In this document: positions 6,207 through 34,668 of the stretch, one piece after another
Layout: every line of letters starts with the position of its first letter
How positions within the stretch are numbered: position 1 is the first letter of the stretch
Assembly: GCA_947259005.1 (NCBI GenBank)
Contig: CAMYKP010000006.1
Span: forward strand, 868,001 to 932,000
Source: an uncultured Parasphingopyxis sp.
GTDB taxonomy: Bacteria > Pseudomonadota > Alphaproteobacteria > Sphingomonadales > Sphingomonadaceae
DNA length: 64,000 nucleotides
Direction: 5' to 3'
Translations under genes and position numbers: made by a program
Notes under the pieces: generated by a model
The model's database searches: none
Told to the model about the DNA's origin: nothing
The model's input: the letters and a program-made list of their open reading frames with translations, nothing else

Positions 6207-7724
6207 ATGGCAAATCCCACGGGCGCGATGGACGCTGCTTTGGTCAGGATAACCAATATCAGCGATTTCATCTGGGGCGGCCTGTGGAATGGCGAGGAAG
6301 TCCTGCCGATCCCACCGCTGGCACTGATCCTGCTCGGCGCAGGCTTGTACATGATGGTGGGCCTGCGCTTCTATCCGCTGAGAAAATTGGGAAGCGCGCT
6401 GGCTGGGCTTTTCCGCAAGCAGGACGTCGGCGACAACCAGATATCGTCATTTGCCGCCCTGTCGACGGCATTGTCCGGCCAGGTCGGCACCGGCAATCTG
6501 GCCGGCGTAGCGACGGCGATCACATTGGGCGGCCCCGGTGCTATTTTCTGGATGTGGGTCACGGCCTTCTTTGGAATGGCGCTGGCTTTTGCCGAAGGTT
6601 CGCTGGCCATCCGTTTTCGCGAACCGGCGCCGGGCGGCGGATTGCGCGGTGGGCCGATGACCTATATCGAACAGGGGCTGGGCCCGCGCTGGGTATGGCT
6701 GGCTGTCCTGTTCAGCATCGGGGCGATGGCGTCTGCCCTGATCGGCGGCAACAGCATCCAGGCCAATACGTTTGGGGACTCCTTCCATGCACTGAGCGGC
6801 TGGGATGAACGCTGGGGCGGCGCGATTGCCGCCATCGGCGTGTTCGTCGTCATTATCGGCGGCATCCGGTCGATCGCACGAGTGGCCGAAACGATCGTCC
6901 CGCTCATGGCCGCCCTTTACATCCTGCCGGCGCTCGTCGCGCTGATCCTGCACGCCCCCCAGATTCCCGGGACCTTCGGCCTGATTTTCGATGGCGCCTT
7001 CTCCGTCCAATCGGCTTCGGGCGGATTTCTCGGTGCGGGCGTTATGATGGCCATCCGTGCCGGTGTGGCGCGGGGCCTTTTCTCCAATGAGGCCGGTCAG
7101 GGCACAACGCCCATGGCCCACGCCGTCGCCAGTACAAACGACCCGGAAGTCCGGGGCCGTTTCGCGATCGCAGACACCTTTATCGATACAATTGTTATCT
7201 GCACGATGACCGCGCTGGTCGTCCTGACGGTGACGGGAGACTTTACCGTATCCGATGCTACGGGCGCGCAGATAGCCGTGGACCATGCCTGGCAATCCGA
7301 TCTCGGTGGTTTCTCGATGACAGCCGGCGACTTTGCCGCGGCCTTCCCCATAGAACTGGCCGGCATCCCGATCGGGCTACTGATAATATCGCTCGTCCTG
7401 ATACTCTTTGTTTTCACAACCTTGATCGCATCGAGTTATTTCGGCGAGCGAGCCATCACCTTTCTCTACGGAAAACTTGCCGCGCCAACACCTGCAGGAG
7501 AGAAGAGACTGCATCTGTGCTGGCGACTGCTCTGGTGTATCGTCGTGTTTGTCGGATCCTTCCTTCCGCTCGAGATGGTCTGGCGTTTAGGCGACATTGC
7601 AGTGGCCGGAATGACCTTCCCGAATATCATCGCAATTATCGCACTATCCAGGATTGTGTTCCTGATCGGGAAATCGAGCCAATCCGTTGACGATTCGGAC
7701 GACCCTGTATCCGAAACGATCTGA
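6207..7724 (+). CDS. AGCS-family sodium:alanine/glycine symporter
   Basis: A 505-residue integral membrane protein with about ten hydrophobic helices. The family-typical N-terminal start (FIWGGLWNGEEVLPIPPLAL), the FAALSTALSGQVGTGNLAG region and FSNEAGQGTTPMAHA are all present. It should import alanine, glycine or a related small amino acid with sodium across the inner membrane. Its ATG lies 41 bases after the truncated PepSY gene, behind a GAAGGA ribosome site. The exact substrate cannot be assigned from sequence. Confidence 0.93.
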   Translation: MANPTGAMDAALVRITNISDFIWGGLWNGEEVLPIPPLALILLGAGLYMMVGLRFYPLRKLGSALAGLFRKQDVGDNQISSFAALSTALSGQVGTGNLAGVATAITLGGPGAIFWMWVTAFFGMALAFAEGSLAIRFREPAPGGGLRGGPMTYIEQGLGPRWVWLAVLFSIGAMASALIGGNSIQANTFGDSFHALSGWDERWGGAIAAIGVFVVIIGGIRSIARVAETIVPLMAALYILPALVALILHAPQIPGTFGLIFDGAFSVQSASGGFLGAGVMMAIRAGVARGLFSNEAGQGTTPMAHAVASTNDPEVRGRFAIADTFIDTIVICTMTALVVLTVTGDFTVSDATGAQIAVDHAWQSDLGGFSMTAGDFAAAFPIELAGIPIGLLIISLVLILFVFTTLIASSYFGERAITFLYGKLAAPTPAGEKRLHLCWRLLWCIVVFVGSFLPLEMVWRLGDIAVAGMTFPNIIAIIALSRIVFLIGKSSQSVDDSDDPVSETI

Positions 7725-7856
7725 TGCCGGGGAACCGCAACTGAACGGAAATCACCTCCGAAACCGAAGTTGGCGAGAAAATTTTCGCTCGCTCCCATTT
7801 TCGTTCCAAAGCCGTTAACGCTGCACCCGACTCGATCACAAAGGAGATTCTGCCCC

Positions 7857-8627
7857 ATGGACATTCCCCATTCGCTTGCTGGCCTAACCGTACTTGTCGC
7901 AGGCGCATCCTCGGGTATCGGGGCACATTTTGCCGAGCTGTTCGCGGCCGCCGGTGCCAATGTCGTGCTCGGAGCACGGCGGACCGACCGGACCGAGACG
8001 CTGGCGGGCGAATTGCGCAACGCAGATCACAGGGCGCTTGCCGTACCAATGGATGTGACGGACGAGAGCTCGGTGATTGCGGCCTATGATGCCGCCGAGG
8101 CCGAATTCGGCACTGTCGACGCGATTGTCGCCAATGCGGGAACGGCAGGCGGCGGGCGCTCGACCGATACCGATGCCGATCGGGTGCGTTCGGTAATCGA
8201 TACCAATCTGCTCGGCGTCTATCTAACAGCACGCGAGGGTGCAAAGCGGCTGATTGCCGATGGCAGTCGCGAAAAGGAGAATGGCCGGATCGTCCTGATC
8301 GGTTCGATCACTGCCGAAATGACGGGCCAGGGCGATGCAGCCTATGCGGCAACAAAAGCGGGCGTCGCGCATCTCGGAAAGCAATTTGCGCGCGAATGGG
8401 TGCGTCAGGGAATCAACGTGAACACCATCCAGCCCGGCTATATCCAGACCGAATTGTCCGGCGACTGGTTCGACACCGAAGGCGGCGAAGCGCAGATCGC
8501 AGGCTGGCATCGCCGCCGCTTGATGGATATCGACGCGCTCGACGATCTCATTCTCTATCTGTGTTCCAGCAGGTCGCGGTATGTGACCGGCGCAACCATC
8601 ACCATAGACGACGGACAAGCATTATGA
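7857..8627 (+). CDS. Short-chain dehydrogenase/reductase
   Basis: A 256-residue NAD(P)-dependent oxidoreductase. The start at 7857 is chosen for its AAAGGAG ribosome site; the frame is open further upstream. The cofactor motif GASSGIG follows the first strand, NAG lies in VANAGTAG, and YAATKAG holds the catalytic Tyr-xxx-Lys with Ser in GSITAEM upstream. The C-terminus ends VTGATITIDDGQAL, as in 3-oxoacyl reductase-like SDRs. It overlaps the next acyl-CoA dehydrogenase by four bases (ATGA), so the pair is co-translated and probably acts on the same acyl-CoA or hydroxyacyl-CoA substrate. Confidence 0.93.
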   Translation: MDIPHSLAGLTVLVAGASSGIGAHFAELFAAAGANVVLGARRTDRTETLAGELRNADHRALAVPMDVTDESSVIAAYDAAEAEFGTVDAIVANAGTAGGGRSTDTDADRVRSVIDTNLLGVYLTAREGAKRLIADGSREKENGRIVLIGSITAEMTGQGDAAYAATKAGVAHLGKQFAREWVRQGINVNTIQPGYIQTELSGDWFDTEGGEAQIAGWHRRRLMDIDALDDLILYLCSSRSRYVTGATITIDDGQAL

Positions 8628-9793
8628 CCCAATCCCCGATTTCCGACCGCGCCCACGCGATCGCCGATAAAGTTGAGCGCTTCGTCCGTGAAACGGTAGT
8701 TCCCTATGAGCAGGATTCCCGCCTGGGTTCACATGGACCGAGCGACGAGCTTGCCGACGAACTCAAAGACAAGGCACGCGCGGCGGGCGTCCTGACGCCG
8801 CACATCCTGGAGGATGGGGGGCACCTAACCCATGCTGAAACCGCGTTGGTGCTCAGGAAATCCGGCCTCTCTCCGCTCGGTCCGGTGGCCTGCAACACCG
8901 CCGCCCCGGACGAAGGCAATATGTATCTGCTCGGCAAGGTCGGCAGTCCGGAGGCCAGGGAACGCTTCCTCAAACCGCTGGTCGAGGGCCGTGCGCGGTC
9001 GGCATTCTTCATGACCGAACCGGCCAGCGAGAATGGCGCGGGGTCCGATCCTTCGATGATGCAGACAAGCGCGAAAATGGATGGCAATCACTGGGTGATC
9101 AACGGCCGCAAGACGTTCATCACCGGGGCGGAAGGTGCGAAGGTCGGCATCGTCATGGCGAAGTCCGATGACGGCGCCTGCATGTTCCTTGTTGACCTGC
9201 CCGATCCCGCCATCCGCATCGAACGCGTGCTCGATACCATCGACAGCTCGATGCCCGGCGGCCACGCCGTCATTACGATCGACAATCTCCGCGTACCGGC
9301 AGACCAGATGCTGGGCGAGAGCGGTGAGGGGTTCAAATATGCCCAGATCCGCCTTGCCCCTGCCCGCCTAACCCATTGCATGCGCTGGCACGGGGCCTGT
9401 GTGCGAGCTAACGAGATCGCGACCGACTATGCCTGCCGGCGCACGGCCTTTGGCAAGCCGCTGATCGACCATGAGGGCGTCGGTTTCATGCTCGCGCAAA
9501 ATCTGATCGACCTCAAGCATACCGAGTTGATGATCGACTGGTGCGCAGGCGTTCTGGACAGCGGCGAACTGGGCACGGCCGAAAGCTCGATGGCCAAAAC
9601 GCATGTCGCAGAGACGCTCTTTCAGGTCGCCGACCGCTGTGTACAGGCTATGGGTGGAACCGGTGTGTCCGGCGATACGATCGTCGAACAGGTGTTCCGC
9701 GAAATTCGCGCCTTCCGCATTTATGACGGACCCACCGAGGTTCACAAATGGTCCCTCGCCAAGAAGATCAAGCGGGAGTGGAATGCGGAATAA
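8624..9793 (+). CDS. Acyl-CoA dehydrogenase, ACAD10/11-like
   Basis: A 389-residue dehydrogenase beginning at an ATG that overlaps the SDR stop. The FAD/substrate loop reads FFMTEPASENGAGSDPSMM, the middle domain has INGRKTFITGAEG, and the C-terminal motif is RIYDGPTEVHKWSLAKKI. The Asp-Gly-Pro motif replaces the Tyr-Glu-Gly motif of medium-chain enzymes, which is characteristic of the ACAD10/11-like branch that handles very-long or branched substrates. It is followed by an AT-rich region that serves aceA, so the operon appears to be two genes long. Confidence 0.93.
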   Translation: MTQSPISDRAHAIADKVERFVRETVVPYEQDSRLGSHGPSDELADELKDKARAAGVLTPHILEDGGHLTHAETALVLRKSGLSPLGPVACNTAAPDEGNMYLLGKVGSPEARERFLKPLVEGRARSAFFMTEPASENGAGSDPSMMQTSAKMDGNHWVINGRKTFITGAEGAKVGIVMAKSDDGACMFLVDLPDPAIRIERVLDTIDSSMPGGHAVITIDNLRVPADQMLGESGEGFKYAQIRLAPARLTHCMRWHGACVRANEIATDYACRRTAFGKPLIDHEGVGFMLAQNLIDLKHTELMIDWCAGVLDSGELGTAESSMAKTHVAETLFQVADRCVQAMGGTGVSGDTIVEQVFREIRAFRIYDGPTEVHKWSLAKKIKREWNAE

Positions 9794-28116: not shown

Positions 28117-28665
28117 ATGGTGAAGAAGACCAAAGCCGCAACGCCCCGGTCGGATGAGTCCCAGTTCGGGCTGCAGCTGCCGATCAGCCGCGACAACGCA
28201 CCGCTGAATTTCCTGAAGCTCTTCTATCCCTTCCACTATGCCGTGGGCATGGCGGTCGAGAAGCAGCTCAGCGGAGATACGCTCAATCGTCACCAGACGG
28301 TCATCCTGTGGATCATCAAATCAAAAGGCCAGGACGGCCGCACCCTGCCCCGCAAGGTCATCGAACAGCTGATCGGCGAATGGTATGATCTGGGGAGCCC
28401 AGCGATTTCCAAAGTGTTGCGCAAAATGGCCCAGCCCCCGCTGGAACTGATCGCGATCGAAGAAAGCGCGAATTCGGGCAGGGAAAAGAGCATCAGCCTG
28501 ACCGAGGCCGGAACCGAGACCATCAATGCGATGATCGCCCGGACAGAAAATTTCATTGCGAAAATTTCGGACAGGCTCACCGATGCCCAGATCCTCAACG
28601 GTATGGACTTTATGGAGCGCGTGGGGGAGATCGTGGAGTTCGAGCTGGAATCGCCCGATTCCTGA
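28117..28665 (+). CDS. MarR-like winged-helix regulator
   Basis: 182 residues from the ATG at 28117; the frame is open upstream but codon content there looks non-coding. A helical N-terminal part is followed by a putative winged helix (LNRHQTVILWIIKSKG, then GEWYDLGSPAISKVLRKMAQPP) and SISLTEAGTETINAMI, the usual C-terminal pattern of MarR proteins. It diverges from the P450-TonB receptor group and is a likely local regulator. The ligand is unknown. Assignment to MarR is by pattern and is moderately secure. Confidence 0.7.
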   Translation: MVKKTKAATPRSDESQFGLQLPISRDNAPLNFLKLFYPFHYAVGMAVEKQLSGDTLNRHQTVILWIIKSKGQDGRTLPRKVIEQLIGEWYDLGSPAISKVLRKMAQPPLELIAIEESANSGREKSISLTEAGTETINAMIARTENFIAKISDRLTDAQILNGMDFMERVGEIVEFELESPDS

Positions 28666-28690
28666 ACGCTTTCGGAGGCAAGCAACGACC

Positions 28691-29182
28691 ATGGCAAAAT
28701 TGCATTTTCTTCTCGGCGGTGCAGCCGCTCTGGCTCTTACGGCTACCTCCGCTTGTTCGGGTGGCGATGACGCCGCACCCGCATCCGGCACGGAGACGTC
28801 CAGCGAAGCTGCCGCAGCCCCGGATACACCGTCCGCAGATTCGATCGATACGCTGGACGGGACGGTGCTTGCCGACTTTACAGGCGACGCATCTGCCGGC
28901 GCTGCCGTGTTTGCGCAGTGCCGGGCCTGTCATGTCGTTGACGAAGGCGTGAATCGCACCGGGCCCTCGCTCCACAATGTCGTCGGCAGTGTGGCCGGCA
29001 GCGTTGGCGGCTTCAATTATTCCGATGCCATTTCGCAAAGCGGCATCACCTGGACGCCGGAAAAACTGTTCCAATATCTTGAAAATCCGCGCCGTATCAC
29101 ACCGGGAACGCGTATGGCCTTTCGCGGCCTTTCAGACCCGCAGGACCGCGCCGATATAATTGCCTATCTCCAGTCGGAATAG
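28691..29182 (+). CDS. Lipoprotein c-type cytochrome, class I
   Basis: 163 residues from the ATG at 28691 with a GGAGG ribosome site. A lipoprotein signal ends at Cys22 (TATSAC). An Ala/Ser/Thr/Asp-rich tether follows, then the heme site CRACH (Cys77, Cys80, His81) and an axial Met142 in GTRMAF. It resembles membrane-anchored cytochrome c2/c552 proteins that shuttle electrons between the bc1 complex and a terminal oxidase or periplasmic dehydrogenase. It is anchored at a membrane facing the periplasm. It starts 25 bases after the MarR-like gene, so the two may be co-transcribed. Confidence 0.9.
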   Translation: MAKLHFLLGGAAALALTATSACSGGDDAAPASGTETSSEAAAAPDTPSADSIDTLDGTVLADFTGDASAGAAVFAQCRACHVVDEGVNRTGPSLHNVVGSVAGSVGGFNYSDAISQSGITWTPEKLFQYLENPRRITPGTRMAFRGLSDPQDRADIIAYLQSE

Positions 29183-29206: not shown

Positions 29207-29590
29207 CTATTCGACGAGGGCCGTCACCCCATAGCCGCGCGCAATGGTCCGTTGTCGGATGTCGGCAGGGCGCAACGCGCCCGCCAGAACGCCGAGCGCC
29301 GCATCGATATCGTGGCGATGGCCGCACAGGAACAGGTCGAGCGCGGCATAGCCATGTTCGGGCCATGTATGGATCGACATGTGCGATTCCGCGAGCAGGG
29401 CGACGCCTGTCACCCCCTGCCCTTCGCCGAAATGGTGCAGGTTCAGGTCGAGGATCGTCGCGCCCGCAGCAGTCACCGCATCGCGCAGCGCCTGCTCGAC
29501 AAGCCCGGCATCATCAAGCCTGGCCGAACAGCCATGAAAGTCCGCCAGCACATGGCGTCCGTCATAGGGTGGAGGAGAGTTAGCCGTCAT
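29207..29590 (-). CDS. speD: S-adenosylmethionine decarboxylase proenzyme (class 1b)
   Basis: 127 residues from the ATG at 29590. Self-cleavage should occur between Glu68 and Ser69 in LAESHMSIHTWPEHGY, making the pyruvoyl group; Cys89 in DLFLCG is the expected proton donor. It produces decarboxylated S-adenosylmethionine, the aminopropyl donor for spermidine. Its start overlaps the end of the spermidine-synthase-like gene by 11 bases, so the two steps of aminopropyl transfer are translationally coupled. It is the last gene of the SPFH-DUF4178-DUF350 cluster. Confidence 0.94.
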   Translation of the reverse strand: MTANSPPPYDGRHVLADFHGCSARLDDAGLVEQALRDAVTAAGATILDLNLHHFGEGQGVTGVALLAESHMSIHTWPEHGYAALDLFLCGHRHDIDAALGVLAGALRPADIRQRTIARGYGVTALVE

Positions 29591-31124
29591 AGCGCCGCCA
29601 TTCATTGGCGAAGGTCCGCACCAGCCGCTGATTGTCGAGCCGGTTCGGTTCGGCATCGACCCGGGCCATGTCCGGCGGAAATTGGAAGAGCAAAGGTTCC
29701 GATGCCGTCGTCACGAAACGCCCTCCCGGCAGCAGGTCGGACTGTTCGGGAACGCCCATGGGCGAGGCGAGAATGAAGCCCCATTCGCCAAAGCTCGGCA
29801 CATAGGCATGATAGGGCCGCGTCTCGAAACCTGCCGCTTCGAGCGTCGCCGCGATCGTCCAGAAGGCATTGGGCGCGACATAGGGCGACCCGCTTTGCAC
29901 CGATACCATGCCGCCGGGCGCGAGGCGCCGAAGCAGGGAGCGGTAAAAGGTCGTGGTGTAGAGCTTGCCGAGCGAAAAATCGGTCGGGTCGGGAAAATCA
30001 ATGACAATCGCGTCATACAGGCCTTCGGTTTCGCGGACCCAGCGAAAACCGTCGGCATTGATGACGGTCATGCGCGGATCGCTGAGCGAGCCCTGGTTGA
30101 GCTGCACCAGAAGCGGGGTTTCGCGGAACAGCTCCGTCATCGCCGGATCGAGATCAACCAGCGTCACGGTCTCGACATCCGGGTGGCGCAGCACCTCGCG
30201 CGCGGCAAGGCCGTCGCCGCCGCCGAGGATCAATACGTTGCGCGGGCTTTCCACACGGCCAAGGTTCGGCAGCACCAGCGCCTCGTGATAGCGATATTCG
30301 TCCAGCGAGGAGAATTGCAGATTGCCGTTGAGGAACAGCGAGACATTCCCGCCGCGCCGCGTGAGCACGATGCGCTGGTACGGTGTCGAGGTCGCATGGA
30401 TGATCGGCTCATCGATACTCGCCGTTTCGGCCAGTCGCTGGAAACGCTCGGCACCGACAAAGCCGATCACGAGAGTTGCAGTGACGAGCAAGCCGGCCAG
30501 CAGCTCGACCGGCAGGCGCCGGCCCCGGGGCTGGATCATGATCAGCGCGATCGCCACGCCGACATTCAGCAGCCCGAACAGGAAGCCGGTCCGGATCATG
30601 CCGATGAACGGCATCAGCACCAGCGGAAAGAGCAGAGACGCCGCCAGCGCGCCGACATAGTCGAACGTCAATACGGTGGAGATGGTTTCGCGGAAATCGA
30701 AATCGTCGCGCAATATCTGCATCAGCAGCGGGATTTCCAGGCCCACGAGAAAGCCGATGACGAGGACCAGGCCGTAAAGTACGACCCGAAATTCATCGAC
30801 GACCGGGAACATCATGAACAGGATCGCCGCCGCCCAGCCACCGACAAGTGCGATCAAAATTTCTGCGCGAATAAAGAGCCTTAGCTCATCCTTCTTCACA
30901 TAGCGTGAGAACCAGCTCCCGATTCCCATTGCGAACAGATAGACGCCGATAATGGTCGAAAACTGGGTGACGCTGTCGCCGAGCAGATAGCTGGCAATCG
31001 TGCTGGCGAGCAGCTGATACACAAGACCGCAAATCGCGACGACAAAGACCGACGCGATCAGGGCATAGGCAAGCGGCCTTGCGGATTTCTCGAACGGGGG
31101 CTGGGGCGCCGCTGTGTCAGCCAA
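29580..31124 (-). CDS. Membrane-anchored polyamine aminopropyltransferase (7-TM spermidine synthase-like)
   Basis: 514 residues if started at the TTG at 31124, whose TTGGCTGA overlaps the DUF350 stop; another in-frame TTG is at 31163 and no ATG is available. The first half has seven hydrophobic helices (about residues 18-225). The second half is a spermidine-synthase Rossmann domain with LILGGGDGLAAREVLRH and IDFPDPTDFSLGKLYT, the aminopropyl-transfer signature. It would move the aminopropyl group of decarboxylated SAM to a diamine at the inner membrane. This long form differs from soluble SpeE of about 290 residues. Confidence 0.9.
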   Translation of the reverse strand: MADTAAPQPPFEKSARPLAYALIASVFVVAICGLVYQLLASTIASYLLGDSVTQFSTIIGVYLFAMGIGSWFSRYVKKDELRLFIRAEILIALVGGWAAAILFMMFPVVDEFRVVLYGLVLVIGFLVGLEIPLLMQILRDDFDFRETISTVLTFDYVGALAASLLFPLVLMPFIGMIRTGFLFGLLNVGVAIALIMIQPRGRRLPVELLAGLLVTATLVIGFVGAERFQRLAETASIDEPIIHATSTPYQRIVLTRRGGNVSLFLNGNLQFSSLDEYRYHEALVLPNLGRVESPRNVLILGGGDGLAAREVLRHPDVETVTLVDLDPAMTELFRETPLLVQLNQGSLSDPRMTVINADGFRWVRETEGLYDAIVIDFPDPTDFSLGKLYTTTFYRSLLRRLAPGGMVSVQSGSPYVAPNAFWTIAATLEAAGFETRPYHAYVPSFGEWGFILASPMGVPEQSDLLPGGRFVTTASEPLLFQFPPDMARVDAEPNRLDNQRLVRTFANEWRRYDG

Positions 31125-31332
31125 CGATTGCCGCAGCCACGATAATCGAAAGGCCGAGCGCAATCATGCCGGCAAAAATGGCGACCGCGACATTCTGCTT
31201 CTGCTCGATTTCTTCCCACAGGCTTCCCGGGGTCAGGAAATCGAGAATGACAAAGGCGACGACCATGACGAAAATGCCGACGCCCGCATAAAGCAGGGTC
31301 GCGCCGACAAGATAGAGGCTGAATAGGTTCAT
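31117..31332 (-). CDS. DUF350-family small membrane protein
   Basis: 71 residues from the ATG at 31332 with a GGGAG ribosome site. Two membrane helices (LYLVGATLLYAGVGIFVMVVAF and VAVAIFAGMIALGLSIIVAAAI) flank the short loop FLTPGSLWEEIEQKQN. This is one DUF350 unit, the YjfL-like family whose function is unknown. It overlaps the following spermidine-synthase-like gene by about 8 bases and lies 28 bases after the 54-residue gene. Context suggests a membrane partner of the polyamine enzyme. Confidence 0.88.
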   Translation of the reverse strand: MNLFSLYLVGATLLYAGVGIFVMVVAFVILDFLTPGSLWEEIEQKQNVAVAIFAGMIALGLSIIVAAAIVG

Positions 31333-31360
31333 AACTGGCTCTCCCTGGTGAACTTCGAAA

Positions 31361-31525
31361 TCATTTGTGACGCGGTCCGCGACCGATAAAGACGCCGCCC
31401 GGTCCGCGTGCCGTGCTTGCCCGCTGGCCATCCGCGAAAGGCGAATAGCCGGTGAAGGATGCATAGGCGAAACCCGATGTGACGAGCAGGCACCATATCC
31501 CGAAAATGAAAACGCCCCGGTTCAT
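31361..31525 (-). CDS. Small membrane protein, 54 residues, in the polyamine/SPFH operon
   Basis: A short frame found by reading between the DUF4178 gene and DUF350. ATG at 31525, stop at 31361-31363, 54 residues. The N-terminus NRGVFIFGIWCLLVTSGFAY is a membrane helix or uncleaved signal, followed by a short soluble tail rich in Gly and Arg. It starts 9 bases after the DUF4178 stop with AGG in ribosome-site position and fills an otherwise empty gap in a tightly packed operon, which supports it being real. No family was recognised. Confidence 0.65.
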   Translation of the reverse strand: MNRGVFIFGIWCLLVTSGFAYASFTGYSPFADGQRASTARGPGGVFIGRGPRHK

Positions 31526-31534
31526 GCCGCTGCC

Positions 31535-32929
31535 TCAGTCATCGTCATCATCTCCTGCAAAATCGCTGTCCGACTTGCGCCGCGATTCAAAGCTCAGATG
31601 TTTCCACCATTGCCATATCGCCGGGACAAACACGAGCAGCAGCGCGAGGAACAGGTTCGAATAGAAGGTTGCGCCCTTCTCTATCGTCACCTCGACCTGG
31701 GCATTGGGGCTGCTGCCATATTGGCCCTCCGTCCAGCGGTTTCCGGCCGCATAGACATTGAGCTCATAGGTTCCCCTTGGAATCATCGAGAATTTGCTCG
31801 CCGAATAACGGCTGCCTTCGGACCAGTTTCCCTCGCTGTCACGGCCGGAATAGGCTTCGACGACATTGTTGGCCTCGAACACCTCGCCGGTATCCCGGTT
31901 TGTCAGGGTATAATTGAGGTCGATCCAGCTATTCTCGATGCGCGGGGCCTGGGCTGAGACTGTGACCGCCTGGCGCGCACGATCGAGCACGATCGGCCCC
32001 ACTTTCGCGCTCTGTTCCACGCCGTCGGTGGACAGATTGACCCGGGCCGTCTGGGGATCGCTGGTCCCGCCGAACAGGAAGGTAAGCACAAGCAGCGCAA
32101 GCCCCACGGCCAGCGCCAGTTTCATGAACCCGCCCGCTTTTTTGCGATAGGGCGAAGGCTGGTGCGGGAGCGGCAGGCCGCCGCCCTTTGCCGGAGGTAT
32201 CCCGAAGGCGTCGGTAATTTCATTGGGCTCGAGAAGTTCGCTCAGAGACCATACCGTCTCGTTGCCGCTATGCTCCCAGCTCAGCATCTTGCCGGGCCGG
32301 ACGAAATCGGCCGTCAGCACTTCCTCGCCAACCGCCACGCGCCAGTAAAACTCGCCCAGCACATAATCGACCTGCGCCCGGGTCTGCGCATAAAAGGGTT
32401 CGTAGAATTCACCATCCACGGTGAAACCGACCAGAGACAGTTTTTGCGGCGAAGCCGTCAGCTGCCGCCCGAAGCTCCAGCCGCGCCCGTCGGTGTCGAG
32501 GAAGCGATAGCCCTCATAGGGATTGAACAGCAGATATTCGTCCCACGGATATTGCCCGTTTTCCGATCGCCGCTGATAGCCGATGACCTCCCATTCGGTG
32601 CCACGCAAAACGCCCCGGCTGCCAAGCGGCAGTTCGAGCTTGCGCACCTCGCCTTCATAGCGCTGGATAATGCTAACATCGGGATTGGTGATATCGAGCG
32701 TCGAGCCGCAATATTGGCAGGCGATGCTGACCGACGTGCCAGCCGCCTTGATCTCTATCGATCCCCCGCAATTGGGGCAGTTGAACTGCTCGGCCGCCGG
32801 GGCGCTGTCACTTTCGGACGGCACAACCGTGCGCGTTGCCGTCGGACCTAGCGGCCGCTCTTCGGAAGCATTGCCCCAGGGATTGGGGCGATCGTCGCCC
32901 GAAGGTGTTTGTGGCGGCTCAGGCGGCAT
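31535..32929 (-). CDS. DUF4178 protein with zinc ribbon and two membrane segments
   Basis: 464 residues from the ATG at 32929, which overlaps the previous stop by 11 bases. A Pro-rich N-terminus leads to a zinc ribbon (CPNC at 51-54, CQYC at 71-74). A DUF4178 domain follows (LGSRGVLRGTEWEVIGYQRR, then WDEYLLFNPYEGYRFL). Then come a membrane helix (LALAVGLALLVLTFLFG), an extracytoplasmic beta-rich domain and a second helix (LFLALLLVFVPAIWQW), and it ends in an acidic tail DDDDD. Function is unknown. Two DUF4178 genes in tandem next to SPFH and polyamine genes suggest parts of one complex. Confidence 0.88.
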   Translation of the reverse strand: MPPEPPQTPSGDDRPNPWGNASEERPLGPTATRTVVPSESDSAPAAEQFNCPNCGGSIEIKAAGTSVSIACQYCGSTLDITNPDVSIIQRYEGEVRKLELPLGSRGVLRGTEWEVIGYQRRSENGQYPWDEYLLFNPYEGYRFLDTDGRGWSFGRQLTASPQKLSLVGFTVDGEFYEPFYAQTRAQVDYVLGEFYWRVAVGEEVLTADFVRPGKMLSWEHSGNETVWSLSELLEPNEITDAFGIPPAKGGGLPLPHQPSPYRKKAGGFMKLALAVGLALLVLTFLFGGTSDPQTARVNLSTDGVEQSAKVGPIVLDRARQAVTVSAQAPRIENSWIDLNYTLTNRDTGEVFEANNVVEAYSGRDSEGNWSEGSRYSASKFSMIPRGTYELNVYAAGNRWTEGQYGSSPNAQVEVTIEKGATFYSNLFLALLLVFVPAIWQWWKHLSFESRRKSDSDFAGDDDDD

Positions 32930-33593
32930 AGTCGGGCATCTTCCAGCCATGAATCGCGCGCAGGTTTTGCGGCTTGAGTTCGGCAAGCGTTACATAGCGG
33001 CCCACGTAAAAGGCCGGGTCTTCGCCTTCCTCCCGTTCGAAATTTGCGGAGAAGCCCTGCTCGTCCCGCATATCGATATTGAACACTTCCCAGCCCGTCG
33101 TCGGCGCAAAGGGCAACTCACCTTCGGCGGCAATACATCTGGCCGTGCGCATGTCCGACACGACAAAATCCGCGCCATCGATCTGGGTGCGATCCCCGAC
33201 CGTCGTCTCCCCGCCCTGCGCCAGATGCTGGATCAGGTCTGAATTGCATTCGGCAATCGGGCGTTCGATGACCATCTGGAATTGCCCGTCCGACTCGCTG
33301 AGCCAGCCATGGGTCATGTCCGAAAAGAGGCAGAGCCAGTCATTCCAGGCGCCCTGGTCATAGCCAAGCCGGATGCGGCCAATGACATCGAAAGGTTTGC
33401 CGCCATATTCGCCGCGCGTTCCGATCTGGATCGGGCTGACATCGAAGGGCAGTACGGCCACTTCGCCGGCCAGCTCGACGCCATCGGCAATCCGTTTCAC
33501 GGTCGCATGGCAATAATCGCAGATGCGCGCAGGCAGGGCCGGTGAGCGGAAGATCACTTCCGCCCCGCAGTTCGGGCAGTTTTCCGATTGCAT
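32919..33593 (-). CDS. DUF4178 protein with zinc ribbon, soluble
   Basis: 224 residues. An N-terminal zinc ribbon has Cys6, Cys9, Cys25 and Cys28 (CPNC, CDYC). The rest is a DUF4178 domain (GTRGEYGGKPFDVIGRIRLG, WNDWLCLFSDMTHGWL). There are no membrane helices, unlike the next gene, with which it overlaps by 11 bases. It lies 58 bases downstream of the SPFH gene. The domain's biochemical role is unknown; zinc-ribbon fusion suggests protein binding rather than catalysis. Confidence 0.87.
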   Translation of the reverse strand: MQSENCPNCGAEVIFRSPALPARICDYCHATVKRIADGVELAGEVAVLPFDVSPIQIGTRGEYGGKPFDVIGRIRLGYDQGAWNDWLCLFSDMTHGWLSESDGQFQMVIERPIAECNSDLIQHLAQGGETTVGDRTQIDGADFVVSDMRTARCIAAEGELPFAPTTGWEVFNIDMRDEQGFSANFEREEGEDPAFYVGRYVTLAELKPQNLRAIHGWKMPDYAA

Positions 33594-33651
33594 TGCCTAG
33601 CCAGTCCCCCCGTTCTGTCTGTTTCGATTAGGCCGCACCTTATATCGGCGC

Positions 33652-34668
33652 TTAGATCTGGCTCAGGAGATCCGCTTTTTTCGCGTCGAATTCTTCCTTG
33701 CTGATCGCACCCATTTCCTGAAGCTTGTGCAGCTTCTCAATCTGCTCGAACGGATCGGCTGCTTCCGCGGCTGGTGCAGCGGGAGCCGCCGGTGCGGCAG
33801 GTGCTGCGGGAGCCGGCTGGGCCAGCGCACCGGCCATGGTCTGGCCGATTGCCATGCCCACGCCTGCGCCTGCGCCGATGCCGGCCATGCCGCCTTCCTG
33901 CTGTGCGGCAAGCTCGATGGCTTCGGCTGCCTGGAACTTCGCATATTGATCGAGATCGCCAAGCACCCGCATCGAGCTTTTCTTGTCCAGATGCTCCTGA
34001 ACAGCTTCCGGCAGCGAGACGCTTTCGACGAAGAACGTCGGTACTTCGAGGCCATATTGCTCGAATGCCGGGCCAACCGCCTCTTTCAGCGCGTCGGACA
34101 ATTTCTGCTGATTGGCCGCGAGGTCGATGAACGGCACATCGCCGCCGCCAAGGCCGGTTGCCAGCGCCGTAATAATGGCGGCGCGCAGCTGGGGCTCGAT
34201 GGAGCTCACCGTCACCTTGTCCAGCGTGCCGACAAGGGCAGAATAGAAAGGCGCGATATCCTTCACGCGGAATGAATAGGTGCCGAAGGCGCGCAGGCGG
34301 ATCGGTCCAAGCTCCGGATCGCGGATGGTGACCGGCTGCGCCGTGCCCCATTTCAGGTTCACCTGTTCCTTTTGCGAGAAGAAATAAACGTCCGTCTTGA
34401 AGGGCGATTTGAACGCCTTGTCCCAGTTTTTGAGATTGGTGAGGATCGGCATGTTCGACGTGTCGAGCGTATGCAGGCCGGGGCCGTACATATCGGCAAG
34501 CACGCCCTCATCGATCACGACGGCTGCCTGTGTTTCGCGGACCGTCAGCTGGGCACCGTTCTGGATCTCGTTATCCGCAAAATCCAGCCGTTCCGCCAGA
34601 TCGCCGGGTTCTTCACCCCATTCGATAACGTCGATAAATTGTTTTGAAAGAAAATCCCTAATGCCCAT
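33652..34668 (-). CDS. SPFH-domain protein with C-terminal SHOCT domain (virion-core/YdjI-like)
   Basis: 338 residues with a GGGAGAGA ribosome site. An SPFH/band-7-like domain spans about residues 40-240 (RETQAAVVIDEGVLADMYGPG, then LRAFGTYSFRVKDIAPFYSAL). A helical Gln/Ala/Gly-rich segment and an Ala-Pro repeat linker follow (about 280-298). A SHOCT motif closes it (DPFEQIEKLHKLQEMGAISK). Such proteins oligomerise at membranes. It is the first gene of the seven-gene cluster that ends in speD, so it may organise a membrane microdomain for the other products. That last statement is inference. Confidence 0.9.
   Translation of the reverse strand: MGIRDFLSKQFIDVIEWGEEPGDLAERLDFADNEIQNGAQLTVRETQAAVVIDEGVLADMYGPGLHTLDTSNMPILTNLKNWDKAFKSPFKTDVYFFSQKEQVNLKWGTAQPVTIRDPELGPIRLRAFGTYSFRVKDIAPFYSALVGTLDKVTVSSIEPQLRAAIITALATGLGGGDVPFIDLAANQQKLSDALKEAVGPAFEQYGLEVPTFFVESVSLPEAVQEHLDKKSSMRVLGDLDQYAKFQAAEAIELAAQQEGGMAGIGAGAGVGMAIGQTMAGALAQPAPAAPAAPAAPAAPAAEAADPFEQIEKLHKLQEMGAISKEEFDAKKADLLSQI

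Follow-up and report, generated by a model that had tools for sequence, protein, structure and literature searches.

A lysine-ended membrane peptide as candidate aminopropyl acceptor in clusters of SPFH, DUF4178, DUF350, membrane SpeE and SpeD genes

A stretch of 64,000 nucleotides from the genome of an uncultured Parasphingopyxis sp. (contig CAMYKP010000006.1, positions 868,001 to 932,000; hereafter the window) carries seven genes in which a membrane-bound spermidine synthase homologue (SpeE) and an S-adenosylmethionine (AdoMet) decarboxylase (SpeD) stand beside an SPFH protein, two DUF4178 proteins, a small membrane peptide and a DUF350 protein. This raises the question of what such a SpeE aminopropylates. 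An earlier sequence-only reading of the locus had proposed a membrane microdomain that makes or places aminopropylated polyamines; it named the 54-residue peptide but gave it no role. The link to the membrane and the presumed aminopropyl transfer stood up in our analysis, while the free polyamine as acceptor is probably wrong. With moderate confidence, and going by sequence comparison, we propose that SpeE would aminopropylate the C-terminal lysine of the small membrane peptide. The cluster type is already in print; the claim about the acceptor is what is new.

The peptide was studied in 80 SpeE loci, which are the best 80 relatives of the query among the matches listed and not a random sample. 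DUF4178 and DUF350 lie upstream of SpeE in 64 of them. The test of the tail was blind to the C-terminus, as the most hydrophobic small open reading frame (ORF) in the gap between DUF4178 and DUF350 was chosen. This ORF ended in lysine in 58 of 63 loci (51 -HK and 7 -GK; one of the 64 loci had no candidate), compared with 4.8% of 8538 background ORFs. By inspection, the lysine tail was present in all 64. Six loci had been missed by the blind choice: in four (L011, L049, L054 and L067) a different ORF of the gap ends in lysine, and in L063 and L081 DUF4178 itself carries the tail at its C-terminus, behind a transmembrane (TM)-like segment. The four replacement ORFs and the fused tails were found with the expectation of a lysine ending. 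Six of the other 16 loci have the tail within the locus (L023, L026, L030, L048, L077 and, as a fusion, L053), and in eight it lies at another place in the genome, next to DUF4178 or DUF350 (L055, L056, L061, L066, L074, L076, L079 and L080; the listing for these split clusters kept only HK or GK ends). With split clusters included, the lysine tail is thus found for 78 of the 80 loci; the contigs end at the other two, L034 and L038 (listed with HK, GK, VK and IK ends), and none contradicts the pattern.

The same tail was found in two further draws of genomes, which may share some species with one another or with the 80 loci. Among Pseudomonadota, 21 of 22 genomes with the SpeE fusion have it, 15 beside SpeE and 6 beside DUF4178 elsewhere (most of this listing kept only HK or GK ends). 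In G164, no tail was found within 6 kb (HK, GK, VK and IK ends listed), and its SpeE lies 82 bp from the contig end. Among Acidobacteriota, the phylum of the L079 genome, the tail was found in 19 of 20 SpeE genomes and at 19 of 23 places in a listing that kept HK, GK, RK, VK, IK, SK and AK ends; it was not found in G387, where the contig ends beside the second SpeE. Tritonibacter (L092) and two genomes of the window's class have tails ending -RVK or -RIK in an unfiltered listing, therefore only the last lysine is constant.

Codon usage in the 58 peptides indicates at which level the tail is maintained. The lysine is encoded by AAA in 46 and by AAG in 12, the histidine by CAC in 30 and by CAT in 21, and all three stop codons are used. 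This points to selection on the amino acids and excludes a cause at the nucleotide level. An origin of the terminal lysine from an overlap of the stop codon with the next start codon was also considered and rejected, with TAA or TAG as stop in 49 of 58 and AAG as lysine codon in 12. Without their last two residues, the peptides have a median identity of 25.6%, as compared to 23.9% for shuffled sequences and 55.6% for SpeE of the same loci. Across phyla the peptide body thus varies like shuffled sequence while the terminal lysine persists. Even within the window and 16 Sphingomonadales loci, conservation of at least 85% is limited to an SP next to the membrane and the GPxHK end.

The tail is borne by very different carriers. 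Besides the separate peptide and the DUF4178 C-terminus (L053, L063, L081 and several further genomes), these include a 510-aa lipoprotein-like protein of Alteromonas ending -RGPSSGK and small plasmid-encoded proteins of Ensifer (-GGPESGK) and Burkholderia cenocepacia (-YGSHK). PspA-type operons also retain the lysine tail; one operon with CesT_Tir_1 and PspA encodes a 96-aa peptide ending -RGLRGGK. Upstream of DUF350, SpeE, DUF2170 and PspA in L196 (4372-5475) lies a gene for a 367-aa protein with a signal-like N-terminus and a silaffin-like C-terminal part rich in Ser, Lys and Asn, which ends -SFRRGK and had no Pfam match. Where the tail is fused to DUF4178, it follows a single TM-like segment, which comes after a domain with no evident signal peptide; this layout would place the tail outside the cytoplasm.

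Terminal motifs often serve as ligands, and such persistence across carriers would also be expected if the HK tail served in docking or assembly. The peptide would then be an unmodified subunit or sensor that binds SpeE or DUF350, and the acceptor a lipid head group, for which the 7-TM and DUF350 domains would be suited, or another protein. We consider this unlikely, since the last lysine alone is invariant and the histidine is not. Moreover, docking does not predict what is seen in related systems, where a Gly-Gly end is found when the enzyme is a ligase.

These related systems are the yjf and ygi operons. The E. coli yjfIJKLMC operon encodes DUF2170, PspA, DUF2491, DUF350, DUF1190 (YjfM) and an annotated peptide-spermidine ligase, and ygiBC is a short form without DUF350. 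YjfC and YgiC were reportedly described as peptide-spermidine ligases by Pederick in 2023. YjfM and YgiB both end -GG, and the ligases presumably act on these proteins themselves. Like the SpeE cluster, YjfMC and YgiBC combine a Ser/Gly-rich tail protein with a polyamine-attaching enzyme, and yjf shares DUF350 and PspA as well. They differ in having a ligase and a -GG end, whereas the SpeE cluster has an aminopropyltransferase and a -K end. DUF1190 was found in 39 of 299 Pseudomonadota genomes, and its ends were read at 30 of 42 places, those with DNA. Here 27 of the 30 proteins end in GG, two in GS and one in GT, and a YgiC/YjfC-like ligase is in reach at 26. The end of the tail thus tracks the enzyme, a glycine carboxylate going with an amide ligase and a lysine amine with an aminopropyltransferase, and this is the strongest argument for the tail as substrate. 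The two sets of genomes do not overlap (39 with DUF1190 and 22 with the SpeE fusion; about 2.9 shared genomes expected), although this exclusion is weak (P 0.04, kinship ignored).

The sister systems also suggest that the carboxylate of the terminal lysine, rather than its side chain, could be modified, or that the lysine is trimmed by a protease, as in systems of the ligase type; those with DUF350 use a peptide-spermidine ligase, as does the short form that lacks it. However, phmmer at E 1e-5 found no YgiC/YjfC-like ORF in any of the 80 loci with SpeE, and SpeE chemistry requires a nucleophile such as an amine, which makes this explanation very improbable. Among the seven genes of the window there was no match to an ATP-grasp ligase or to DUF1190, and DUF1190 was not found in the window's genome. 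The window cluster works like the peptide-spermidine ligase systems but is not a member of them.

Next to the tail, the proposal depends on the enzyme. SpeE matched NCBIfam PRK03612 'polyamine aminopropyltransferase' with 645.8 bits (cut-off 472). Seven TM helices within residues 17-223 are followed by the aminopropyltransferase domain at about 241-514; in the AlphaFold2 (AF2) model (pLDDT 91.3) the TM-type helices span 17-48, 51-75, 80-105, 112-138, 144-174, 176-197 and 205-223. Each catalytic-site position is conserved in more than 95% of 81 rows. In 14 divergent rows the DP-loop aspartates (D376/D379, or D389/D392 when counted from 31163), G-x-G-D-G, D371 and the residues of the DE and YH motifs are invariant, and the third Gly and the Glu of YHE are kept in at least 90%. 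The domain matches solved aminopropyltransferases in Foldseek with TMt 0.71-0.81; the best 50 rows are all matches of the transferase domain and none covers the TM domain. The possibility that the SpeE-like domain lacks aminopropyltransferase residues therefore did not hold, as both residues and fold are retained. In TM1, residue 37 (50 counted from 31163) is Gln in the window and Glu in more than 95% of the relatives.

Loop charges suggest how SpeE is oriented. The loops TM2-3, TM4-5 and TM6-7 hold on average 8.4 Lys plus Arg, compared with 2.25 in the other three, a bias found in 48 of 48 sequences. With seven TM helices and the positive-inside rule, the N-terminus would be inside and the transferase domain outside. 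This bears on whether SpeD and SpeE could instead make spermidine or a relative of it from putrescine at the membrane, in response to membrane stress and with the peptide as a mere subunit. SpeE keeps catalytic and amine-site motifs and carries the NCBIfam label of a polyamine enzyme. On the other hand, neither an OKR-type decarboxylase (OKR_DC) nor an ordinary ornithine or arginine decarboxylase was found in the window's genome, which is 84% complete (import was not tested), the SpeE domain is predicted to be extracytoplasmic, and the invariant terminal lysine would be left without reason. The making or placing of free polyamines that had been suggested for this locus is thus unsupported and, in our judgement, improbable. 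The invariant C-terminal lysine of the peptide would be a better candidate for the acceptor than a free amine.

Two side observations concern the polyamine genes of this genome. The sole match to the N-domain of Orn/Arg decarboxylases is an exosortase-A-associated decarboxylase (TIGR03099; C6:167725-168453, L085). A second, weak Spermine_synth match (C6:69294-69638, L084) lies in a 222-aa soluble-looking protein, which falls below the NCBIfam SpeE cut-offs.

Based on these data, we propose the following sequence of steps for modification of the peptide. SpeD, whose homology is clear, would decarboxylate AdoMet in the cytoplasm. The SpeE fusion is predicted to lie in the inner membrane with seven TM helices, its N-terminus inside and its transferase domain outside. 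Decarboxylated AdoMet might pass through the 7-TM domain, perhaps together with DUF350; at a guess, acidic residues that are conserved within or close to the SpeE TM helices (e.g. D50, E130 and D155) would suit a cationic cargo. The aminopropyl group would then move to the side-chain amine of the peptide's C-terminal lysine, and the product would be a spermidine-like C-terminal arm, because the side chain of lysine resembles putrescine in being an aminobutylamine. The SPFH-SHOCT protein and the two DUF4178 proteins would keep the enzyme close to the peptide from below the membrane, as the fusions and the linkage suggest. In most relatives, a flavin adenine dinucleotide (FAD) amine oxidase with an N-terminus resembling twin-arginine translocation (Tat) signals may oxidise the arm. 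The system probably serves the homeostasis of the membrane or envelope, in parallel with systems of the PspA type. The full form of this proposal, with the terminal lysine aminopropylated outside the cytoplasm, is proposed tentatively. It is just as tentatively that we suggest a widespread bacterial modification, in which microproteins anchored in the membrane would have their C-terminal lysine aminopropylated on the outside, as one of two parallel routes to a polyamine arm. The second route in this joint reading, spermidine ligated to Gly-Gly, with the envelope proteins of both routes tied to SPFH or PspA, is put forward with the same reserve.

Several points weigh against lysine aminopropylation as described here. 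An outside domain would require decarboxylated AdoMet to cross the membrane. A wrong TM count would return the predicted SpeE domain to the cytoplasm, in which case the transfer could happen inside, before export. The putrescine-site motifs of SpeE are largely kept, so that SpeE might use a free amine. The side of the tail is suggested by DUF4178 fusions and by variants that look, by eye, exported or lipoprotein-like, and the charges of the 58 peptides are near neutral on the matter, with Lys plus Arg 1.40 and Asp plus Glu 0.29 before the TM segment, and 1.57 and 1.53, respectively, in the 15 residues after it. The penultimate residue varies (H, G, V or I), and conservation of the terminal lysine could reflect docking or stability instead. 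Four DUF1190 loci with no ligase in reach also end in GG, whereas the three with other ends do have one. Finally, the oxidase is frequent in relatives, yet the 84% complete genome of the window has no match.

The 80 loci span Sphingomonadales, Burkholderiales, other Proteobacteria, Bacteroidota, Verrucomicrobia, Acidobacteria, Nitrospirae, Oligoflexia, Obscuribacterales and others, and the order DUF4178-peptide-DUF350-SpeE is kept in most of them. Twelve loci lack the usual pair immediately upstream; when their genomes were searched, DUF4178 was found in all 12, compared with 1 of 14 control genomes; in two of the 12, L053 and L076, it already lies elsewhere within the locus. Among the 299 Pseudomonadota genomes, 22 have the SpeE fusion and 20 have DUF4178, 19 of these above the cut-off. 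All 19 fall within the 22 (hypergeometric P ~3e-27, uncorrected for kinship), therefore the association is not due to chance. G152, G164 and G195 have the SpeE fusion without DUF4178 at that threshold. The twentieth DUF4178 genome, G007, lies below the cut-off (24.6 bits) and has a more distant SpeE with DUF350, DUF2170 and PspA. The gene set is thus found together across phyla, which supports the conserved membrane-linked system that had been suspected. Free variation of the neighbours was not observed, although they vary in part, with PspA/CesT in place of SPFH, split clusters, and the oxidase present or absent. Duplications were seen as well: the Solitalea locus L037 has two consecutive genes of the DUF4178b type (6440-7744 and 8185-9489), and G305 and G387 (L170/L187 and L169/L186, respectively) have two SpeE fusions a few kb apart that differ in identity to the query.

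The oxidase, of which two members were tested and assigned to PF01593, comes immediately after SpeE in 71 of the 80 loci, e.g. L003:11566-13179, and in L074 oxidase and SpeE form one ORF. It was not found in eight of the 80 (L006, L029, L036, L055, L056, L061, L066 and L070). In a mechanical count over a motif-filtered set of 26 sequences, 22 have an RR pair at any position of the N-terminal extension; by eye, 18 of the 26 are Tat-like, four have RK instead and some are lipobox-like. In the window cluster there is no oxidase between SpeE and SpeD. As both the window and its close relative L006 lack it, modification rather than oxidation would be the core of the system. Beside the oxidase, L042 (13147-14220), L028 (13098-14189) and 27 further loci encode a membrane protein of about 360 aa (family F4) with conserved His-containing motifs by eye; two members tested gave nothing above the Pfam cut-off.

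In the window, the seven ORFs run on the minus strand from 34668 to 29207 (Table 1). The sequence-only reading had given this gene order, and all seven genes were confirmed as ORFs, all but the peptide also by Pfam matches. It had also described four overlapping or close junctions, and with the starts of four genes refined these are borne out: DUF4178a and b overlap by 11 bp, DUF4178b and the peptide are 9 bp apart, and DUF350/SpeE and SpeE/SpeD overlap by 8 and 11 bp, respectively. The remaining two of the six junctions are gaps of 58 and 28 bp. Upstream lies a TonB-dependent receptor gene and downstream a convergent cytochrome c gene (28556-29182), therefore the seven genes form a self-contained unit. 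A promoter/terminator scan found no promoter-like site on the minus strand, and terminator-like sites were not above their number in shuffled sequence. The SPFH-SHOCT protein has no clear TM segment by hydropathy (highest 19-residue value 1.43) and may be a cytoplasmic scaffold. DUF4178b has four invariant cysteines (C50, C53, C70 and C73 as numbered in the model, which begins one residue past Met), which in the AF2 model are followed by the DUF4178 beta domain, a TM helix (261-285), a second beta domain (292-417), a TM helix (422-451) and an acidic tail. Foldseek gave no convincing match for DUF4178 (TMq <= 0.17, best 50 rows), and the 54-aa ORF matched no Pfam family. SpeD, the only one detected in the window's genome, matches TIGR03330 with 117.6 bits (cut-off 75.65) and carries an ESH...HTWPE...CG motif, of which we take ESH to hold the processing Ser of class 1b AdoMet decarboxylases.

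Table 1. Features of the seven-gene cluster, in window coordinates.
Feature	Position	Strand	Start or stop	Evidence
SPFH/Band-7 protein with C-terminal SHOCT, 338 aa	33652..34668	-		Pfam Band_7_1 9.1e-73, SHOCT 1.4e-7
DUF4178 protein a, 224 aa, N-terminal Cys pairs (zinc-ribbon-like, by eye)	32919..33593	-		Pfam DUF4178 1.1e-14
DUF4178 protein b, 464 aa	31535..32929	-	ATG 32929 (refined)	Pfam DUF4178; AF2 pLDDT 88.4
54-aa membrane peptide ending GPRHK, proposed aminopropyl acceptor	31361..31525	-		ORF list, conserved tail
C-terminal His-Lys codons CAC AAA of the peptide	31364..31369	-	stop TGA 31363-31361	DNA sequence, tail conservation
Short DUF350, 71 aa	31117..31332	-	ATG 31332 (refined)	Pfam DUF350
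Membrane SpeE, 514 aa	29580..31124	-	TTG 31124 (refined)	Pfam Spermine_synth 9.7e-35
SpeD, class-1b-like AdoMet decarboxylase, 127 aa	29207..29590	-	ATG 29590 (refined)	Pfam AdoMet_dc 4.5e-35

Parts of this picture have precedents. Li, Kurihara, Kim, Liang and Michael are said to have described in 2019 a linkage of AdoMet decarboxylase, a fusion of a major facilitator superfamily (MFS) domain to spermidine synthase, and DUF350, in an enzyme family found in thousands of genomes. Reportedly, no spermidine was seen, such fusions did not complement E. coli speE, and the acceptor was thought probably not to be putrescine, with no acceptor named. The window shares with these clusters the linked SpeD, membrane-SpeE fusion and DUF350; our analysis adds the peptide with its terminal lysine, the SPFH and DUF4178 proteins, and the predicted outside position of the SpeE domain. 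The earlier neighbourhood work suspected by the sequence-only reading also exists: in the accessible part of Ravi et al. 2024 (PMC11237479), operons related to the phage shock protein (PSP) system combine PspA-CesT with a 7TM-SpeE fusion, DUF350, DUF4178 and a lipoprotein. A band-7-2TM-SHOCT variant with AdoMet decarboxylase and polyamine oxidase is included, and 'aminopropylation of other substrates' is raised (PMC11237479). The window cluster differs from the operons in that part of the article by lacking PspA, oxidase and ATP-grasp ligase and by having two DUF4178 genes; band-7 and SHOCT are present, but no clear TM segment is seen by hydropathy. That part of PMC11237479 mentions neither an acceptor peptide nor a C-terminal lysine. 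As for the chemistry, diatom silaffins are modified peptides whose lysines bear aminopropyl units (PMC3820600), although silaffins are eukaryotic, carry many such lysines and have an enzyme machinery that is only starting to be known. In microcin C, an aminopropyl group is placed on a peptide conjugate, but on a phosphate and by MccD and MccE rather than SpeE (PMC10491745). In the full texts searched, DUF4178 came up in a single paper. Bacterial lysine aminopropylation was not found in a literature search of titles and abstract openings, with subscription journals mostly outside its coverage.

For the substrate of the SpeE-fusion family, the terminal lysine gives a directly testable candidate. 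If the proposal is true, SpeD and SpeE homologues would be over-annotated as polyamine biosynthesis in many genomes, and bacteria would have a candidate for aminopropyl transfer to protein lysines, the chemistry of the silaffins. Operons with DUF350, DUF4178, SPFH and PspA would then follow a shared logic, in which a polyamine-armed protein is kept at the envelope.

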